Below are positions 17,504-37,406 of a DNA stretch of 38,643 nucleotides, in pieces. The position numbers were made by a program, and so were the translations under genes. Numbering within the stretch: the stretch's first letter is position 1; every line of letters starts with the position of its first letter. The notes under the pieces are model-generated. The model did no database searches. It saw only the letters and a program-made list of their open reading frames with translations, and had not been told where the DNA came from. Origin of the DNA: Oceanivirga salmonicida (GTDB taxonomy: Bacteria > Fusobacteriota > Fusobacteriia > Fusobacteriales > Leptotrichiaceae); contig NZ_LOQI01000010.1 of NCBI RefSeq assembly GCF_001517915.1, positions 1 through 38,643 of the forward strand, given 5' to 3'.

Positions 17504-17600
17504 TGGCGGGAATGTGTGGGAATCGAACCCACCTAAGAGGCTCTTAACCCCTCATGCTGGTTTTGAAGACCAGAGAGAACACCAGAACTCATCCACTCCC
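17504..17600 (-). tRNA. selC: tRNA-Sec (anticodon TCA)
   Basis: The RNA is about 97 nt including an encoded CCA. The acceptor 5' strand GGGAGTG pairs with CATTCCC (one G·U). The anticodon arm CTGGT-CTTCAAA-ACCAG presents TCA (17564-17566 on the + strand), which reads UGA. The long variable arm has a GAGG/CCTC stem, and the T arm GTGGG-TTCGATT-CCCAC is perfect. Length, anticodon and long variable arm identify tRNA-Sec. The eighth acceptor pair would be a G-A mismatch, and the D stem as I draw it has two U·U oppositions, which is unusual. It has its own promoter and terminator and lies next to selD. Confidence 0.96.
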
Positions 17601-18984: not shown

Positions 18985-20292
18985 TTATACTTTAAATACA
19001 GTTTGTCCTTCTATTTCTTTAGTTAATGCATCTAATGCTACTGAAACTCTATGTTCTCTTAATTCATATTGTTCTTCTTTAGATGTTGCTGGATCTCCTA
19101 AAGGATAAGGTATAGATATAGTAGGTACTATTTTATTTACACCTACTGTAAGAGCAACTGGTACTAAGTTACACATTTGAACTATTGGTATACCTGCTTT
19201 TTCTACTTCTTTAACTATCGTTGCACCGCAACGTGTACAAGTACCTCAAGTAGACACCATTATAACACCGTCCACATTATCTGCTTTTAAATGCTCTAAC
19301 ATTTCTTTACCCATTCTTGCAGCTTCTGCTTGAGTAGTTCCTGTTCCTACAGTACTGTAGAAATAGTCATGAAGTTTACCAAAAACTCCTTTTTTAACTA
19401 AATTTTTCAATGCATCTAAAGGAACTATTACATTAGGATCATTATCTGCTGCTGCTGGATCAAATCCTGCGTGAATAGTTTTGAATTCTCCTGATTTAAG
19501 TCTATCCATTTGTGATATATCATATCTTCCCCATCTTGTTGCAGATGCAGATTGTATTCTATCTGGATTATCTACAGGAACAATTCCACCTGTTGTTAAT
19601 ATTGCAATTTTAGCATTCTTTAAATCTTTTATAGGTGTTGCAACAGGAACAGAATCTTTTTTAGGTATTGGAAGTTCTGTACAAAATTCTTCACCTTTAA
19701 GTTTTTTAACAAGCATATCTACACCACGTTTAGCAGCACTTACTTTTGAATCAAGCCATACTTGATGTCTTATTCCTCTTGCGAAATAACCATTTTCTTC
19801 AGCCCCGCCAACTTCTTCATTTCTTAATACTTTATCAATATATTTTGCTATTGCTTTAGTATCATCTTTCATAGAAGCTGCTGAACGTCCACCTTCAAAT
19901 ATAATTATTTCTTTTTTAAACATTTCTACACCTGGATTTTCTACATTCATAGAACTTATAACAGGTACATTATATTTTTCTTTAATTGCTTTACATATAT
20001 TACCACAAGCAACTCCATATCTTCCTGCTTGGAAAGCTGGTCCTGCAATAAATATATCAAAATCTAAATCTTTTATTAATTCCATTATTTCAGCTATTGC
20101 TTCATCTTTATTTGATCCCATGTAATTATCACCACAAATAATTGTATGAGTTATTTGAACTTCTTTCATTTCACTGTTAAATGCCATACCTGGACCAACA
20201 ACGCCTTCTTTTAAAACAGGCTTAAAGTCAGCTTTATCTTCTCCACCAATTCCACCAAAGAATTGATTTATATAATGAATTGCTTTTTTCAT
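18985..20292 (-). CDS. grdH: Component B selenoprotein of the third reductase module, probably betaine (GrdH)
   Basis: Component B of glycine-type reductases binds the substrate and activates it for transfer to selenoprotein A. The ORF appears broken by TGA at 19246-19248, but reading it as selenocysteine (U349) gives one protein of 435 residues with STUGTCTRCGAT, the UxxCxxC motif of this family. YINQFFGGIGGEDKA at the start and VMVST before the Sec are conserved. A six-bp hairpin lies 12 nt after UGA. It is 44 bases downstream of the GrdI-like gene and behind a BCCT betaine-type transporter, which is why I assign betaine; substrate specificity cannot be read from the sequence directly. Confidence 0.9.
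19219..19233 (-). promoter_or_regulatory. SECIS hairpin of grdH
   Basis: On the - strand CGTTGC-GGT-GCAACG forms a six-bp stem with a GGU loop, 12 nt after the UGA. The same element occurs in grdB with identical spacing and in grdF one pair shorter. Confidence 0.75.
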
Positions 20293-23390: not shown

Positions 23391-23783
23391 TTACATGACA
23401 CGTGGAATAATATTATCAATTACTGACAAATCTATAGTTTTAAAATCTTCAGCAATTCTTTGTTCATAATTCTTAGGTGTATGCGATATTTCTTGCCACT
23501 GTTTAAAAATTTCTATACATTTTTCTATTAGTAGTATATCTTTCATGTTATCTTCTTTATCACTCTTAGGGTAAACCATTACAGATCTGTAAGGTGTTTG
23601 ATTTGGTTTCAAACTTGAAGCCTGAGGGTGTGTAAGAAGAATATGTCTATCATAAACAAAATTTCTTGCTTTAATTAGAACTTCCTCATATGTTCTAACA
23701 AAGATACATTGTAATGTATCTTTATATTTCTCATAAACTTTGTCATTATTAGTAATAAGTATTACTTTTTCAATATTCCACAT
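23391..23783 (-). CDS. grdX: GrdX family protein (second copy)
   Basis: A protein of 130 residues of the GrdX family, small proteins of unknown function coded with glycine reductase genes. Shared marks with the copy at 36763-37134 are an ILLTHP stretch, SLKPNQTPYR, a central helix IEKCIEIFKQW and a C-terminal DFKTIDLSVIDNII. AAAGGA lies six bases before the ATG. It follows the YkvI-like transporter by 30 bases and closes the sarcosine-type module. The family's task is unknown; carrying a separate GrdX per module hints that it is tied to each component B. Confidence 0.85.
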   Translation of the reverse strand: MWNIEKVILITNNDKVYEKYKDTLQCIFVRTYEEVLIKARNFVYDRHILLTHPQASSLKPNQTPYRSVMVYPKSDKEDNMKDILLIEKCIEIFKQWQEISHTPKNYEQRIAEDFKTIDLSVIDNIIPRVM

Positions 23784-24986: not shown

Positions 24987-26309
24987 TTAAAAGTTATCTT
25001 TTTCGAAAACAGTTTGCTCTGTAACTGGAGTTTGTAATACTTTAAGAGCTCTTCTTAACATACGTTTACGTATTTTCTTAGAATCTTCTTCTCCTTGTGT
25101 AGGATCTCCAAGAGGATATGGTATTCCCACACCTGGTATTATTCTGTTAGCACCTATTGTAAGTGAAATTGGAACTACTGTCGCCATATGAACTACAGGT
25201 ATTCCGTATTTTTCTATTCCTTTTACCATTGTTGCACCGCAACGTGTACAAGTACCTCAAGTGCTGACAAGAATAACAGCATCTACATGTTCATCAATAA
25301 GTTTTTGTCCTATTTCAGTTCCAAATTTAGCAGCTGAACCTGTAGCTGTTCCTGTTCCTGTTGTAGCATAGAATGTGTTATATAATTCTCCAAATTCTCC
25401 ATCTCTTTCCATTTCTCTTAATACATCAAGAGGAACTACAAGGTTAGGATTTTCCATAACAAATTGACGGTCATATCCACCATGAATTGTAGTGAAATCT
25501 TTTGATGATAATTCACTAAGACCTTCTATAGAATAAGCACCGTATTTTGTAGCATTTGAAGATTCTATATGATCTGGATTTCCTGTAGGAACAACTCCAC
25601 CTGAAGTTACTATAGCTATTTTAGCTTTTGTAATATCTTTAACAGGATCTGCAGGAGCTACTCTATCAAACTTAGGCATAGGAAGATCTGTTTCAAAAGG
25701 TTCTCCCTTCATTTTCTTAACAAGCATTTTTACAGCTCTTGCTGAAGCTCTTTCATCTGCAAAATAATTAACTCTAATTCCTCTTTCATGGTATCCTTCA
25801 ATTGAAGGACCTAATATTTCTTCACCTGTTGCCATTTTCTTAACAAGGTTAGAAACAATTTTTATAGAATTTTTCATATCAGCTGCAGAATTTTTAGTTT
25901 TAACTATAATAACATCTTTACGGAACATGTCTACTCCTGGATTTTCTTCATATTCAGCAGTAATAACAGGTATTCCTAATTTTTCATCTACAGCTTTACA
26001 TATAGTTCCACAAGCAACTCCATAACGTCCCGCATTAAATGCAGGCCCTGCTACAAAGACATCAGGATTGAATTTTTTAACCATTTGTAAAATAGTTTCA
26101 GTAGCTTCTTCTAAGTTTTCACCGAAATAATTATCACCACATATAATTGTAGCAACTATTTCGTAATCATCACCTAATTCAGTTTGTAATGCTAATCCTG
26201 GACCTATAGCCACACCTTCTCTTAATTCAGGTTTATGACCAGCTTTTTCTTCTCCACCAATACCAGCAAAAAATTGATTTATATAATGTACTACTTTATA
26301 TTTTTTCAT
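24987..26309 (-). CDS. grdF: Component B selenoprotein of the second reductase module, probably sarcosine (GrdF)
   Basis: The reading frame is interrupted by TGA at 25257-25259; read as selenocysteine (U351) it gives a protein of 440 residues with STUGTCTRCGAT (UxxCxxC). YINQFFAGIGGEEKAGH at the N-terminus, PAFNAGRYGVACG and IPYPLGDP are conserved. The ATG at 26309 has AAGGAGG eight bases upstream; upstream in-frame starts lie inside grdG and are rejected. It is 13 bases after grdG. It is closer in length and sequence to GrdB than the third-module protein is. Sarcosine is proposed because the other two modules fit glycine and betaine better. Confidence 0.88.
25231..25243 (-). promoter_or_regulatory. 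SECIS hairpin of grdF
   Basis: On the - strand GTTGC-GGT-GCAAC forms a five-bp stem with a GGU loop, 13 nt after the UGA. The sixth pair of the grdB and grdH versions is a C-A mismatch here. Confidence 0.7.
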
Positions 26310-27726: not shown

Positions 27727-27762
27727 GCAGTAGTTATTATGTATAGCAGTAGTTATTATGTA
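27727..27762. repeat. Two tandem 17-bp copies upstream of grdG
   Basis: GCAGTAGTTATTATGTA occurs at 27727-27743 and again at 27746-27762, 19 bases apart. The first copy also forms a hairpin with the preceding TAACTAC (TAACTAC-CGCA-GTAGTTA, 27717-27734). The region of about 250 bases between the symporter stop and the grdG start holds nothing else that is clear. Confidence 0.7.
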
Positions 27763-27866
27763 CATAAGAACCCAGCTTATCCCTCCTTTTTTCTCTTTTT
27801 ATTTATTGTATCTAAATTTGATAAACTTTTTACACTTTTTACATTTTCGTAAAATATTTAAATTAC

Positions 27867-29276
27867 TCAATCTTTATAATCGTAGTTTACATCTCCTTCT
27901 GCATACTTTTTATTGTAATCTTTTAGTAATGTTTTAACTTCAAATGATAACCAAGCAACAGCTATTAAGTTTGGAAGAACCATTAAACTATTGAATATAT
28001 CAGCTAATGACCATACTATCTCTACTTCTTGTAATGATCCTGCTATTATACAGATTATTACTATTATTCTATATGGCATTAAAGCAGATTTACCAAATAA
28101 GTATTTAATGTTAGATTCTCCAAAATAATACCAACCTATTATAGTTGTAAAAGCAAAAAATGCAAGACAAACTGCTAATAGAATTGCTCCAAATTCACCA
28201 AATGCTATTTTGAAAGCACCTTGTGTTAATTGAGCACCTTTAAGATATTGTCCATTAACATCTGTGACATTATATGCTCCTGTTACTAAAATAGATAAAG
28301 CTGTTGCAGAACAAACTACTGCTGTATCTATAAACACTCCTACTATTGCTGTTAACCCTTGTTCAGCTGGATGTTTAACGTGTGCTACTGCATGGGCATG
28401 TGGTGTAGAACCCATTCCTGCTTCATTAGAGAATAATCCTCTTGCAACACCTTTTTGAACTGCTGCTTTTACTACTGTTCCTGCAATACCACCTGCTACT
28501 GCACTAGGTGCAAAAGCACTTCTTATTATCCAAGCAAATGTAGGAATTATTTGATTATGGAATATAATTAAAATTATAATACTAACAAATATATATACTG
28601 CCGCCATAATTGGAACTACTAATTCAGCAAATTTTGCAATTCTTTTCATACCACCAATAAAGATTAATGCTGCTAGAAAAGCAACTATTACTCCTATTAT
28701 TCCGCCATTTATATTTTCTAATCCACTTATTCCTTTAATTCCTGCTGCAATAGAATTTGATTGAACTGCATTTCCCATAAATCCTAATGCTAAAATTATT
28801 GATATAGCAAAAAAGCCAGCTAAAAATTTACCTATTATTCCTGTTTTTTTCAAACCATAATGTATATAATATGCTGGTCCACCAACTAATTCGCCATTAA
28901 TTTTAGATCTATATTTTTGAGCTAAACAAGCTTCGGCAAAGATAGTCCCCATACCAAGAAAGGCCGCAATCCACATCCAGAAAATTGCCCCTGGTCCTCC
29001 TGCAGTTATTGCTGTTGCAACTCCTGCTACATTCCCAGTTCCTACTTGTGCTGCAATAGCAGTAGCAAGAGCTTGGAATGAAGTCATCGAACCTTCTTTT
29101 TTAGTAATTTGTTTCTTAAATACCATTTTAAATGCTCTTGAAAATTTAGTTACTTGTGGAAATCCTAACATAATACTTAAAAATAATCCTACACCTAATA
29201 ATCCCCACATTAAGATATTACTGGCAATGAAATTATTTATTGTATTTATTAATTTTATCAACTCTTCATAACCCAT
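27867..29276 (-). CDS. Sodium:alanine/glycine symporter (AGCS family)
   Basis: A transporter of 469 residues with about 11 membrane segments. The AGCS signature is clear: FQALATAIAAQVGTGNVAGV, GGPGAIFWMW with FAEACLAQKYR, GGPAYYIHYG, and LFSNEAGMGSTPHAHA. Family members import alanine or glycine with Na+. Lying right after grdD, it most likely brings in glycine for the reductase. AAGGAG is nine bases before the ATG. Expression is probably controlled by the terminator/antiterminator-like leader directly upstream. Confidence 0.94.
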   Translation of the reverse strand: MGYEELIKLINTINNFIASNILMWGLLGVGLFLSIMLGFPQVTKFSRAFKMVFKKQITKKEGSMTSFQALATAIAAQVGTGNVAGVATAITAGGPGAIFWMWIAAFLGMGTIFAEACLAQKYRSKINGELVGGPAYYIHYGLKKTGIIGKFLAGFFAISIILALGFMGNAVQSNSIAAGIKGISGLENINGGIIGVIVAFLAALIFIGGMKRIAKFAELVVPIMAAVYIFVSIIILIIFHNQIIPTFAWIIRSAFAPSAVAGGIAGTVVKAAVQKGVARGLFSNEAGMGSTPHAHAVAHVKHPAEQGLTAIVGVFIDTAVVCSATALSILVTGAYNVTDVNGQYLKGAQLTQGAFKIAFGEFGAILLAVCLAFFAFTTIIGWYYFGESNIKYLFGKSALMPYRIIVIICIIAGSLQEVEIVWSLADIFNSLMVLPNLIAVAWLSFEVKTLLKDYNKKYAEGDVNYDYKD

Positions 29277-29299
29277 ATTTTTTACTCCTTAAATTCATA

Positions 29300-29350
29300 T
29301 ATAAAAAAACGGTAGTTTTAAATTTTTAATATTTACTAAAACTTACGTTT
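29300..29350 (-). terminator. Intrinsic terminator in the symporter leader
   Basis: On the - strand AAACGTAAGTTTTA (29350 to 29337) pairs with TAAAACTACCGTTT (29320 to 29307): 12 pairs around a two-base internal mismatch, then seven T. It ends about 24 bases before the symporter start codon and stops any transcript that enters from grdD or from the promoter at 29439-29467. Confidence 0.8.
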
Positions 29351-29395
29351 TTCCGTTTAGTTTTATGTGTAAATATCAATATAGTAAAATTTCTC

Positions 29396-29410
29396 AACTA
29401 CCGTAAGTTT
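29396..29410 (-). promoter_or_regulatory. Candidate antiterminator strand of the symporter leader
   Basis: This 15-base segment (AAACTTACGGTAGTT on the - strand) can pair perfectly over nine bases with the 5' arm of the terminator (29339-29347) or over nine bases with its 3' arm (29309-29317). Either pairing would disrupt the terminator. This is the usual build of a riboswitch or attenuator expression platform. I recognise no known aptamer in the roughly 45 bases between the segments. Confidence 0.55.
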
Positions 29411-29438
29411 ATATAGAAATATTGTTATTTTTTTAACT

Positions 29439-29467
29439 AATATATTCGTAAAAAATGTTCAAATCAA
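29439..29467 (-). promoter_or_regulatory. Promoter of the symporter leader
   Basis: TTGATT (29462-29467 on the - strand), 17 bases, TATATT (29439-29444), just after the grdD stop codon. The start would be near 29432, giving a leader of about 155 nt. Confidence 0.6.
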
Positions 29468-29481
29468 TAACTTGTTTTTTT

Positions 29482-30624
29482 TTACGATAACAATCCTTCT
29501 GATTTTAAAATTTCTTTTGATTTTTCTTTATTTTCTTTACTTACAAGAATAATAGGACCTGTGCATCCCATACCACTTTCAGCATAAATATTATGTTTCC
29601 ATAATAATTTTGCAGCATCTTCTAAATCCATGATATCAACACCTGAAATTTGTGAAGTTACTACTTCTTTTTCGGGCATTTTTATTTCTTCAGAAGGTTT
29701 TGTTTCTTGTTTTTTATTTTTTAATTCAGAAAAAATTTTATCTAAACCTGCATCTTGTGCTTTTTTATACTCTTGTCTAGCCTTTTCATCAACTTTTCCT
29801 ATAGCAATTTCATAACCATATTTAAGAGCTTTTGCAACAACAGGCGAACCTGATGCTCTTGATAAAATTAAAATTCTTCTATCATAATCTTCGCCTACTC
29901 CTGGACCATAACCATATCCTTGTGCTTCATAATCTCCACCTGTTGTGTATGAAGAAAATATCTTCATGAAAAGATTTCCAGTCAATGAATCTGTTACCAT
30001 TACATCAGGAGTACCCATTAATAAATCATTTCCTCTCATTACAGATCCACCGTCTGCTCTTTGAGATTCAGAGAATTTAAAATCATACCCATTTTTTTGA
30101 AGTTCTAATAATATTTTTTCAGTTTGTCTTGCACCTTCTATGTTTATAATTCCAACTGTTGGTTTACATATACCAACTGATTTAGCAGTTGCTATTCCAT
30201 ATATGGCATTTCTAACCATCGCTTCTACTCTATCAGTTGCTGATGTACCAGTAGTAGTTGCTATAAACATTTCTTTTCCTTTTCCAGGAGTTATTACTCT
30301 ACCTACTGTAGAAACTCCTATAGGGAAATTATAGTGCATTGTAACACATGAAGATATTTCACCTTTATCTAAAAGTTCTTCCATTATTTTATGTGCTTCT
30401 TCTTCTGAACTAGTTTCATAACTTTCAAAATCTTCATGACCTTTTCCTATTAAAACTATATCAAACAAATCATTTTTTGCAAATTTTGCACCTTTTATAA
30501 TATTATCAACTCCGTGTTCACTACCTAAAGTTGTTACTCCTACTTTTATTTTTTTACCGAAGTTTCCTGTTTCAATAGCATCTGCTACTTCCATAAGAAC
30601 TTCTGAAATTATTTTTTTGCTCAT
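29482..30624 (-). CDS. grdD: Glycine/sarcosine/betaine reductase component C, alpha subunit
   Basis: GrdD, with GrdC, releases acetyl phosphate from the carboxymethyl-selenoether on selenoprotein A. It has 380 residues. The first 270 residues resemble PlsX/phosphotransacylases (GKKIKVGVTTLGSEHG, GVINIEGARQ region). A Lys/Glu-rich linker (about 300-322) leads to a C-terminal segment with C354 in ESGMGCTGP. This Cys corresponds to the catalytic Cys359 known from the Eubacterium acidaminophilum enzyme; C93 lines up with Cys98. The start is 12 bases after grdC, with AGGGG upstream. It is shared by all three component B modules because no other copy is present here. Confidence 0.95.
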   Translation of the reverse strand: MSKKIISEVLMEVADAIETGNFGKKIKVGVTTLGSEHGVDNIIKGAKFAKNDLFDIVLIGKGHEDFESYETSSEEEAHKIMEELLDKGEISSCVTMHYNFPIGVSTVGRVITPGKGKEMFIATTTGTSATDRVEAMVRNAIYGIATAKSVGICKPTVGIINIEGARQTEKILLELQKNGYDFKFSESQRADGGSVMRGNDLLMGTPDVMVTDSLTGNLFMKIFSSYTTGGDYEAQGYGYGPGVGEDYDRRILILSRASGSPVVAKALKYGYEIAIGKVDEKARQEYKKAQDAGLDKIFSELKNKKQETKPSEEIKMPEKEVVTSQISGVDIMDLEDAAKLLWKHNIYAESGMGCTGPIILVSKENKEKSKEILKSEGLLS

Positions 30625-32210: not shown

Positions 32211-33521
32211 TTAATTTTCAAACACTGTTTGACAACTTACTTCTGTTGTCAACGCTTTTAATGCCTTATTAACTAATTTTCTTCTTAATTTCTTTTCATC
32301 AGCTTTATCTAATTTTGGATTACCTAATGGATGAGGTATCGCAATAGCAGGAACAATTCTATTTGCTCCAACAGTTAGAGAAATTGGTACAACTGTACAC
32401 ATATGAACAACAGGTATTCCAGCTCTCTCTATTTCTTTTGCCATCGTTGCACCGCAACGAGTACAAGTACCTCATGTAGATGTTAAAATAACTGCATCTA
32501 CCCCAGCAGATACTAATTTAGCACCAATTTCTTTTGCAAATGCTTTTGCATTAGCAACTGCAGTACCATTACCTACTGTTGTGTAGAATTTATCATGTAA
32601 TTCTCCTATTACACCTTCTTTTACTAAATCACGCATTACATCTACTGGTAATACACGATCTGCATCTAAATTAGCATAAACAGGATCATACCCACCATGT
32701 GCTGTTTCATGAGTTTGCTCAGTTAAATCATCAAATCCTTTCAAGCAATATTCACCATATTTTGATGCAGAAGAAGATTCAATATGATCAGGATTAGTCT
32801 TAGGTACAATACCTCCTGATGTTACTAAAGCAATTTTTGCTTTAGATAAATCTTTAACTGCTTTATTTGGCTCAACACGGTCAAAATTAGGCATAGGATA
32901 TTCTGTTTCAAAAGATTCTCCTTTTATTTTCTTTATAAGCATATCTACTGCACGTTTTGAACCTGTTTCTTTATGGAAGAAATTAACTCTTACACCTTTT
33001 GGTATATAACCATCTTCTTTTGGAGAAAGTATTTCTTCACCTTTATATAATTTTTTAGCAAAATTAGCCAACTTAGGTAAAACTTTTCTCATACCTGCTG
33101 CACTATCAGATGCTTCTACTATATATATATCTTTTTTATATAAATCAACACCTGGATTTTCAACATACATCGCAGTTACAGAAGGTATATTCAATTTATC
33201 TTGAACAAGTTTAGTAATAGTTCCCGCAGCAACTCCATAACGACCTGCATTAAATGCTGGACCCGCAATAAATAATTGAGGATTCATATCTTTTATCATT
33301 TCAAGTAAAGTAACTTGTGCTTTTTCAAGATTTTCATTGAAATAGCTGTCACCACATACTACTGTAGCTACTATTTCAAATTCTTCTCCCAATTGACTTT
33401 GCAATTGTTGTGATATTGGCGGAAGTTCTTTTCTAAGTTCTGGCTCTATATGTGCCTTTTCTTCCCCACCAACTCCTGCAAAAAATTGGTTTATATAATG
33501 TACTACTTTTACTTTATACAT
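32211..33521 (-). CDS. grdB: Glycine reductase component B selenoprotein (gamma subunit)
   Basis: GrdB is the selenocysteine subunit of the glycine-specific component B. TGA at 32472-32474 splits the reading frame; as selenocysteine (U350) it yields a protein of 436 residues with STUGTCTRCGAT. This position matches Sec350 of known GrdB proteins. YINQFFAGVGGEEKAH, PAFNAGRYGVAAG and IPHPLGNP are conserved. AAGGAGG precedes the ATG. It lies in the canonical order grdE - grdA - grdB - grdC - grdD, so glycine is the substrate with good confidence. GrdB with pyruvoyl GrdE forms the Schiff base with glycine that is attacked by the selenol of GrdA. Confidence 0.95.
32445..32459 (-). promoter_or_regulatory. 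SECIS hairpin of grdB
   Basis: On the - strand CGTTGC-GGT-GCAACG, a six-bp stem with a GGU loop, 12 nt after the UGA and identical to the grdH element. Confidence 0.75.
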
Positions 33522-36762: not shown

Positions 36763-37134
36763 TTATTTAATTATTCTATTTATAGCATTTGTAATTAAAT
36801 CATAATCTATGACACTAAAATCGTCTTTTACTGTTTCAACCCACATTGGAGTTTTTTTATTTTTTTCAAATTTTATAAATGTCTCTATTGCCTGCGATAT
36901 TAAATTAACTGAATTAATATCTAAAATATCTCCTGTTTTTAAAACTATTGTTCTATAAACAGTTTCATTTGGCTTTACACTTCCATACATAGGATGAGTA
37001 AGTATTTCATAATTTTCATGTATATAATCTCTTGCTATTTTTAATATTTCAAGATAACTTACATTTCTAAAATCTACTTCTATGCCTTTACTTATATAAT
37101 TCAAAAACTTCGGATTATTTGTTAACAATTTCAC
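36763..37134 (-). CDS. grdX: GrdX family protein, first gene of the glycine reductase operon
   Basis: A GrdX protein of 123 residues. Its marks are EILTHPMYGSVKPNETVYR, the helix LISQAIETFIKFEK and DFSVIDYDLITNAINR, all shared with the second copy. The start is GTG at 37134, eight bases after AAGGAG, with no ATG nearby. It is the first gene after the glycine riboswitch and is followed by trxB after 21 bases. The function is unknown, but the position is conserved in glycine reductase operons. Confidence 0.85.
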   Translation of the reverse strand: MKLLTNNPKFLNYISKGIEVDFRNVSYLEILKIARDYIHENYEILTHPMYGSVKPNETVYRTIVLKTGDILDINSVNLISQAIETFIKFEKNKKTPMWVETVKDDFSVIDYDLITNAINRIIK

Positions 37135-37265: not shown

Positions 37266-37380
37266 TCTATTCCAGAGTTTTGTCCAAATACAGTCTCTTT
37301 ACCTGAGAATTTCGCTAGAAATCGCAAATTAGCTAACTTGTCCCTTCGGTGCTCTATATTAAAGTCTCTCCCGTATTCTT
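37266..37380 (-). ncRNA. Glycine riboswitch, single aptamer
   Basis: Reading the - strand, the aptamer shows CGGGAGAGACT, then AGAGCACCGAAGGGACAAG, a variable P3 stem, and TCTCAGGTAAAGAGACTG followed by GGACAAAACTCTGG. These are the conserved blocks of the glycine aptamer. Only one aptamer is present, where many such riboswitches carry two. It lies between the operon promoter and grdX. Glycine riboswitches usually turn genes on, which fits a glycine-degrading operon. Confidence 0.93.
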
Positions 37381-37406
37381 CATCCAAATATATTCATTTA
37401 TACTAG

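Follow-up and report, generated by a model that had tools for sequence, protein, structure and literature searches.

What occupies the interval between grdD and agcS in Oceanivirga salmonicida, and does it control the symporter gene that follows? In the window, by which we mean the whole analyzed stretch of 38,643 nucleotides, the end of grdD at 29482 and the start of agcS at 29276 are separated by a 205-base gap, which constitutes the leader considered here, with its features on the minus strand. Upstream lies grdD (29482..30624, minus strand), which encodes glycine/sarcosine/betaine reductase component C alpha and matches NCBIfam NF040747 with 592 bits against a cut-off of 350. Downstream lies agcS (27867..29276, minus strand), an amino acid:cation symporter gene that matches TIGR00835 with 474 bits and has the sarcosine reductase genes grdG-grdF 3' of it. 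The order on the minus strand is glycine riboswitch, grdX, trxB, trxA, grdE, grdA, grdB, grdC, grdD, leader, agcS, grdG and grdF, and 3' of grdF are a transporter gene, a grdX paralogue, a BCCT transporter gene, a further component-B reductase pair (grdI/grdH-like) and selenocysteine machinery; some of these gene names rest on sequence resemblance and position. An earlier note on this DNA had read the leader as a transcription attenuator, in which a promoter is followed by a 15-base segment that can pair with either arm of a downstream intrinsic terminator.

The complementarities at the heart of that reading are exact. The 15-mer AAACTTACGGTAGTT (29410-29396, minus strand) forms two perfect nine-base pairings with downstream sequence, one between 29410-29402 and 29347-29339 (CGTAAGTTT) and the other between 29404-29396 and 29317-29309 (AACTACCGT). 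When the leader is shuffled with its dinucleotides preserved, a single 9-mer match is common (39%), while two matches from one 15-mer arise in 1.5% of shuffles and a 9-mer match with at least four G/C in 0.05%. The pairings are thus not a product of chance, as the earlier note had maintained, but since the 15-mer is near-palindromic its two matches are not the fully independent events that the note took them for. The leader as a whole folds far better than its own shuffles (z -6.4, with 0 of 200 shuffles as good), and the sense strand folds slightly better than the antisense strand.

Homologous leaders were sought by symporter searches, which covered 60 relatives and then all 33 genomes of the family. 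Orthologues of agcS stand behind grdD in four relatives, G019, G006, G015 and G008; the genes 3' of agcS are grdG-grdF in the first three of these, but not in G008. The five genomes that bear the leader are exactly the carriers of grdD, and hence of glycine reductase, among the 33. A covariance model of these leaders gives high-scoring matches at exactly five loci in 96 genomes of the order. A sixth match, in G008, is marginal (E 0.046), sits in an unrelated gene region and was set aside. A DNA search of the window genome itself gave a second match of 31 bases (at C61), which falls inside a 659-amino acid reading frame and was dismissed as an AT-rich coincidence. Three Leptotrichia-group genomes (G003, G031 and G029) carry an agcS that is 79-81% identical, without grd genes, and there the gene is preceded by a short, plain leader that lacks the helix described below. 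A scan of public genomes added Firmicutes homologues, whose leaders are unrelated, and L063, which is the G019 contig again. The agcS genes of Parvimonas and Tissierellia, 73-76% identical, were considered as a source of homologous leaders and rejected, their leaders being unrelated.

Comparison of the five leaders reveals a long-range helix, P1, which in all five species joins the 5' part of the leader to a U-rich strand immediately upstream of the ribosome-binding site. P1 starts ∼18 nt into the transcript, as counted from its inferred 5' end, and consists of P1a (7 bp), a 3 × 3 internal loop and P1b (up to 9 bp), together enclosing a variable region of 65-100 nt. In the window, the P1a strands are AUAUAAA (29408..29414) and UUUAUAU (29299..29305), with changes on both sides at four of the seven pairs; the P1b strands are ACGGUAGUU (29396..29404), which is the core of the 15-mer, and AACUACCGU (29309..29317), which doubles as the terminator's 3' arm in the earlier proposal, with both-side changes at four of the nine pairs. 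All four strands are on the minus strand, and the 3' strands of both parts are backed by covariation, RNAalifold and realignment. The compensation is plain in P1a, where AUAUAAA/UUUAUAU in the window becomes GUAUGGA/UCCAUAC in G019 and G006 and GUGCAGA/UCUGUAC in G008. RNAalifold, given a sequence-only alignment of the five, finds P1 unprompted, with eight pairs changed on both sides out of 16, and 88.8% of the cells in the helix are paired. These measures of pairing and covariation are matched by none of 500 shuffles (for one measure, by 1 of 500), though a simple tally of pair types shows no increase. The fold energy of the alignment is -13.6, as compared to a mean of -0.6 after column shuffling (z -14.5; 0 of 300), and P1 survives both realignment and the omission of any one species. 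The earlier note had staked its reading on conservation of the 15-base strand among relatives, and the strand is indeed kept, as half of a helix that covaries. P1 is, very probably, an RNA helix maintained by selection. A repeat at the DNA level, such as a transposon end, was considered and rejected because the arms change in compensated fashion at a fixed position in all five species.

The terminator does not share in this conservation. The proposed hairpin (29306..29351, minus strand), in which the two downstream partners of the 15-mer pair with one another, is interrupted, has a predicted energy of only -7.9 kcal/mol and is followed by U; the U7 tract after P1b (29303..29309, minus strand) is terminator-like in the window genome only. 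In all four relatives the tract is interrupted, as UUUUUCC in G019 and G006, UUUGCUUG in G015 and UUUAUUUC in G008, and the combination of terminator hairpin plus U-tract is not conserved in these homologous leaders. In the five-species alignment the terminator helix shows no covariation, with 35-231 of 500 shuffles as good, and neither does the pairing of the 15-mer with the 5' arm, with 322-424 of 500 as good. Terminator scans of the leader, which limit loops to 8 bases, returned none. Nor does the growing transcript favor the local terminator, even if the 15-mer is blocked: an inner hairpin specific to the window genome, P3/P4 (29326..29379, minus strand; from minimum-energy folds of the growing transcript), is stronger, forms earlier and captures the terminator 5' arm. 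An attenuator in which the 15-mer serves as an antiterminator strand, competing under the control of a sensor with an intrinsic terminator at 29351-29306, would account for the exact complementarities and the U7 tract of the window genome, and for the 3' arm (29309-29317) that P1 and the local hairpin have in common. Against the lack of covariation in both helices, the broken U-tracts and the loss to the inner hairpin, we regard it as distinctly improbable. What stands of the original proposal is a structured, conserved leader of the symporter gene.

Termination could nonetheless take another form. Only in the window genome does a perfect P1b run directly into U7, and there P1b itself therefore looks like the base of a terminator. 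P1b, the nested inner hairpin and U7 would then together make up an intrinsic terminator of which the 15-mer is the 5' arm, not an antiterminator, and which separates the grd operon from agcS in place of the grd terminator of the relatives. The growing transcript preferentially adopts a structure that closes with the 9-bp P1b, U7 coming directly after, and a terminator-like hairpin follows grdD in G019, G006, G015 and G008, with none seen in the window. Part of the U tract is, however, paired across by P1a, and such a terminator would leave the conservation of P1 unexplained in species that have an interrupted U-tract and a grd terminator of their own. We consider this account unlikely: transcription termination is possible in the window genome only, where it may matter, with the 15-mer as its 5' arm.

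We instead favor a role for P1 at the level of translation. The 3' strand of P1 adjoins the ribosome-binding site, whose Shine-Dalgarno sequence AAGGAG lies at 29285..29290 (minus strand) and is predicted by folding to be accessible once P1 forms. The unpaired probability of the Shine-Dalgarno sequence and the start codon was compared between folds in which P1 was forced and folds in which its 5' strand was blocked. With P1 forced as opposed to blocked, the Shine-Dalgarno values are 0.95 and 0.24 in G019, 0.73 and 0.16 in G015, 0.76 and 0.22 in G008, and 0.36 and 0.26, a weak effect, in G006. In the window genome the Shine-Dalgarno sequence is mostly open either way (0.86 and 0.73), and it is the start codon that responds (0.58 and 0.11). 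By prediction, then, P1 opens the site in most species, and clearly so in G019, G015 and G008. Occlusion of the Shine-Dalgarno sequence in the relatives is only moderately unusual, lying in the lowest 5-13% of 78 control genes. The covering hairpins use the same strands in different registers from species to species, and consequently draw no support from covariation themselves. In G019, G006 and G015 a fold other than P1 has the lowest predicted energy, in G015 by ∼15 kcal/mol, so P1 would need kinetics or a helper to form in these three.

On this evidence, P1 would act as an anti-sequestor within a cis-acting leader RNA of ∼155 nt. Once formed, it would withhold its 3' strand from a hairpin masking the Shine-Dalgarno sequence or the start codon, leaving the ribosome-binding site open and agcS translated; were P1 prevented from forming, the local hairpin would close the site. 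We hold this competition to be the most likely of several models for what P1 does, a model drawn from predicted folds, and put the odds that it is the main mode of action at somewhat short of even. That the leader is regulatory in some manner is a good deal safer and, in our judgment, probable. A constitutive P1, which does not switch and instead protects the 5' end, stabilizes the RNA or gives an RNase or an RNA-binding protein a place to dock, would sit well with a helix that starts ∼18 nt from the inferred 5' end and is conserved while the region it encloses varies in sequence and length. It would not account for the position of the 3' strand next to the ribosome-binding site, nor for the sharing of that strand with occluding hairpins in most species, and we judge it unlikely.

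Since the region enclosed by P1 is not conserved across the five species, an aptamer as the sensor is disfavored. Few positions in it are invariant in the five-species alignment, in which no conserved aptamer-like core is found inside P1, and Rfam gives no match in the leader, whether searched across the whole window, in the leader at E values up to 10, or in the four relatives. The earlier statement that the leader holds no known aptamer is in keeping with this, while the small new aptamer suggested alongside it loses ground. A new small-molecule riboswitch closed by P1 and responding to glycine, sarcosine, alanine or betaine would draw on the closing-stem geometry of P1, on the glycine riboswitch 8 kb upstream in the same window (a single aptamer at 37281-37383, minus strand, ahead of grdX and the grd operon), and on the paralogous agcS genes of other Fusobacteriales that are led by tandem glycine-aptamer-like sequences, as read by eye (L045, L046, L048, L052-L054, L057, L059, L060 and L062). 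With no conserved core and no Rfam match, such a riboswitch appears highly improbable. The possibility of a leader peptide was also examined, and the leader showed no short frame that is rich in glycine or alanine and has a ribosome site.

A second element of the leader, missed along with the competition at the ribosome-binding site in the earlier reading, is a palindrome at its promoter. The promoter proposed in that reading is present as a sigma-70-like site, TTGATT-17-TATATT (29439..29467, minus strand), which matches the consensus at 9 of 12 positions; the match alone is not above chance, though its position just ahead of the palindrome is consistent with use. The palindrome TAGTTAA-AAAA-ATAACAA (TAGTTAAAAAAATAACAA; 29422..29439, minus strand) overlaps the inferred start site at about 29432 and has the form of Rex sites, as does TTGTTAATTTTTTAACAA in G015. 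In the sequence-only alignment it occupies one and the same position in all five leaders, immediately past the -10 region; a palindrome of the Rex operator pattern TTGTTAA-N4-TTAACAA, overlapping a promoter that is itself a consensus match only, is thus conserved in the orthologues. In the window genome (G000), G019, G006 and G015 it is the only exact match to TWGTTAANNNNWTAACAA genome-wide, and genome-wide counts of Rex-type motifs with one mismatch allowed are not above control. A Rex-type DNA-binding domain (PF06971) scores above cut-off in all five genomes, a Pfam domain that alone is no proof of orthology. The predicted Rex site of Thermoanaerobacterium saccharolyticum adhA, TAGTTAAATTTATAACAA, follows the pattern TAGTTAA-N4-ATAACAA (PMC5886521), and glycine reductase of Clostridioides difficile is reported to be regulated by Rex (PMC12285225, PMC4885068). 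The palindrome is rather likely to be a Rex operator, in which case Rex, a repressor that senses NADH/NAD+, would place transcription of the leader under redox control at the promoter, and the leader would be transcribed at high NADH/NAD+.

Separately, a Rex-type site, TTGTGAAAGTTTTAACAA, occurs at L160 1501-1518 in the other genome of the genus (G001), upstream of a glyceraldehyde-3-phosphate dehydrogenase-like (gapA-like) gene. The glyceraldehyde-3-phosphate dehydrogenase gene is a common Rex target.

Set beside known systems, the leader resembles translational anti-sequestor/sequestor leaders in having a long-range helix that is exclusive with a hairpin over the Shine-Dalgarno sequence or start codon; it differs from such riboregulatory leaders in having no conserved sensor domain and no Rfam entry, and its switching is predicted from folding energies only. 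With intrinsic-terminator attenuators (trp/TRAP, riboswitch expression platforms) it shares, in the window genome, a 5' strand that can pair with the 3' arm of a terminator-like hairpin, and a U-tract, but the terminator and U-tract are not kept in relatives and the terminator helix does not covary. With Rex-regulated fermentation and Stickland operons (C. difficile grd; T. saccharolyticum adhA, PMC5886521) it has the operator palindrome and the target pathway in common, whereas here a candidate site in Fusobacteriales precedes a transporter gene with a structured leader. The glycine riboswitch (RF00504), one of which stands upstream of the grd operon in the window, controls glycine-related genes, but the agcS leader does not match it.

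The leader is a real, structured cis-regulatory leader that is new to Rfam and belongs to no known family. Our best reading is that it is new, structured and restricted to this lineage, and that a Rex-type promoter drives it; to the whole explanation, in which P1 acts as an anti-sequestor in a leader so transcribed, we assign a probability of about 0.42. A larger claim, that this is a new class of cis-regulatory RNA serving as the second tier of an AND-gate (redox/substrate) over Stickland fermentation, in which Rex would gate synthesis of the leader and P1, set by a metabolite or protein, would gate expression of the transporter and sarcosine reductase, seems to us quite unlikely. To our knowledge, the regulation of glycine and sarcosine fermentation has been little studied in Leptotrichiaceae. 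To this family of the Fusobacteriales the present analysis adds a statistically well-supported, uncatalogued leader RNA, in which the exact bases whose mutation could test it are named, and the likely Rex site would tie the transporter to the redox state. The case also illustrates that an 'attenuator' spotted by hand can mask a different, conserved structure that is revealed only by cross-species comparison.

Several smaller features of the window deserve mention. A perfect 10-base inverted repeat, TCGTAAAAAA/TTTTTTACGA (29446-29455 and 29478-29487), is found at the grdD stop codon of the window genome, at the place where the relatives have their conserved grd terminator, which this genome lacks. 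In the gap between agcS and grdG (27728-27765), GCAGTAGTTATTATGTA occurs twice, adjoining the inverted repeat CTACCGCAGTAG, as read by eye. A grdX-like gene stands after the sarcosine module (23391-23783, minus strand), and another heads the glycine operon (36763-37134, minus strand). Finally, three SECIS_4 elements (19208-19245, 25219-25256 and 32434-32471, minus strand) are present, each within one of three component-B reductase genes (grdB, grdF and the grdH-like gene); with tRNA-Sec (17508-17600) and nearby selenium genes they form a compact selenoprotein cluster.
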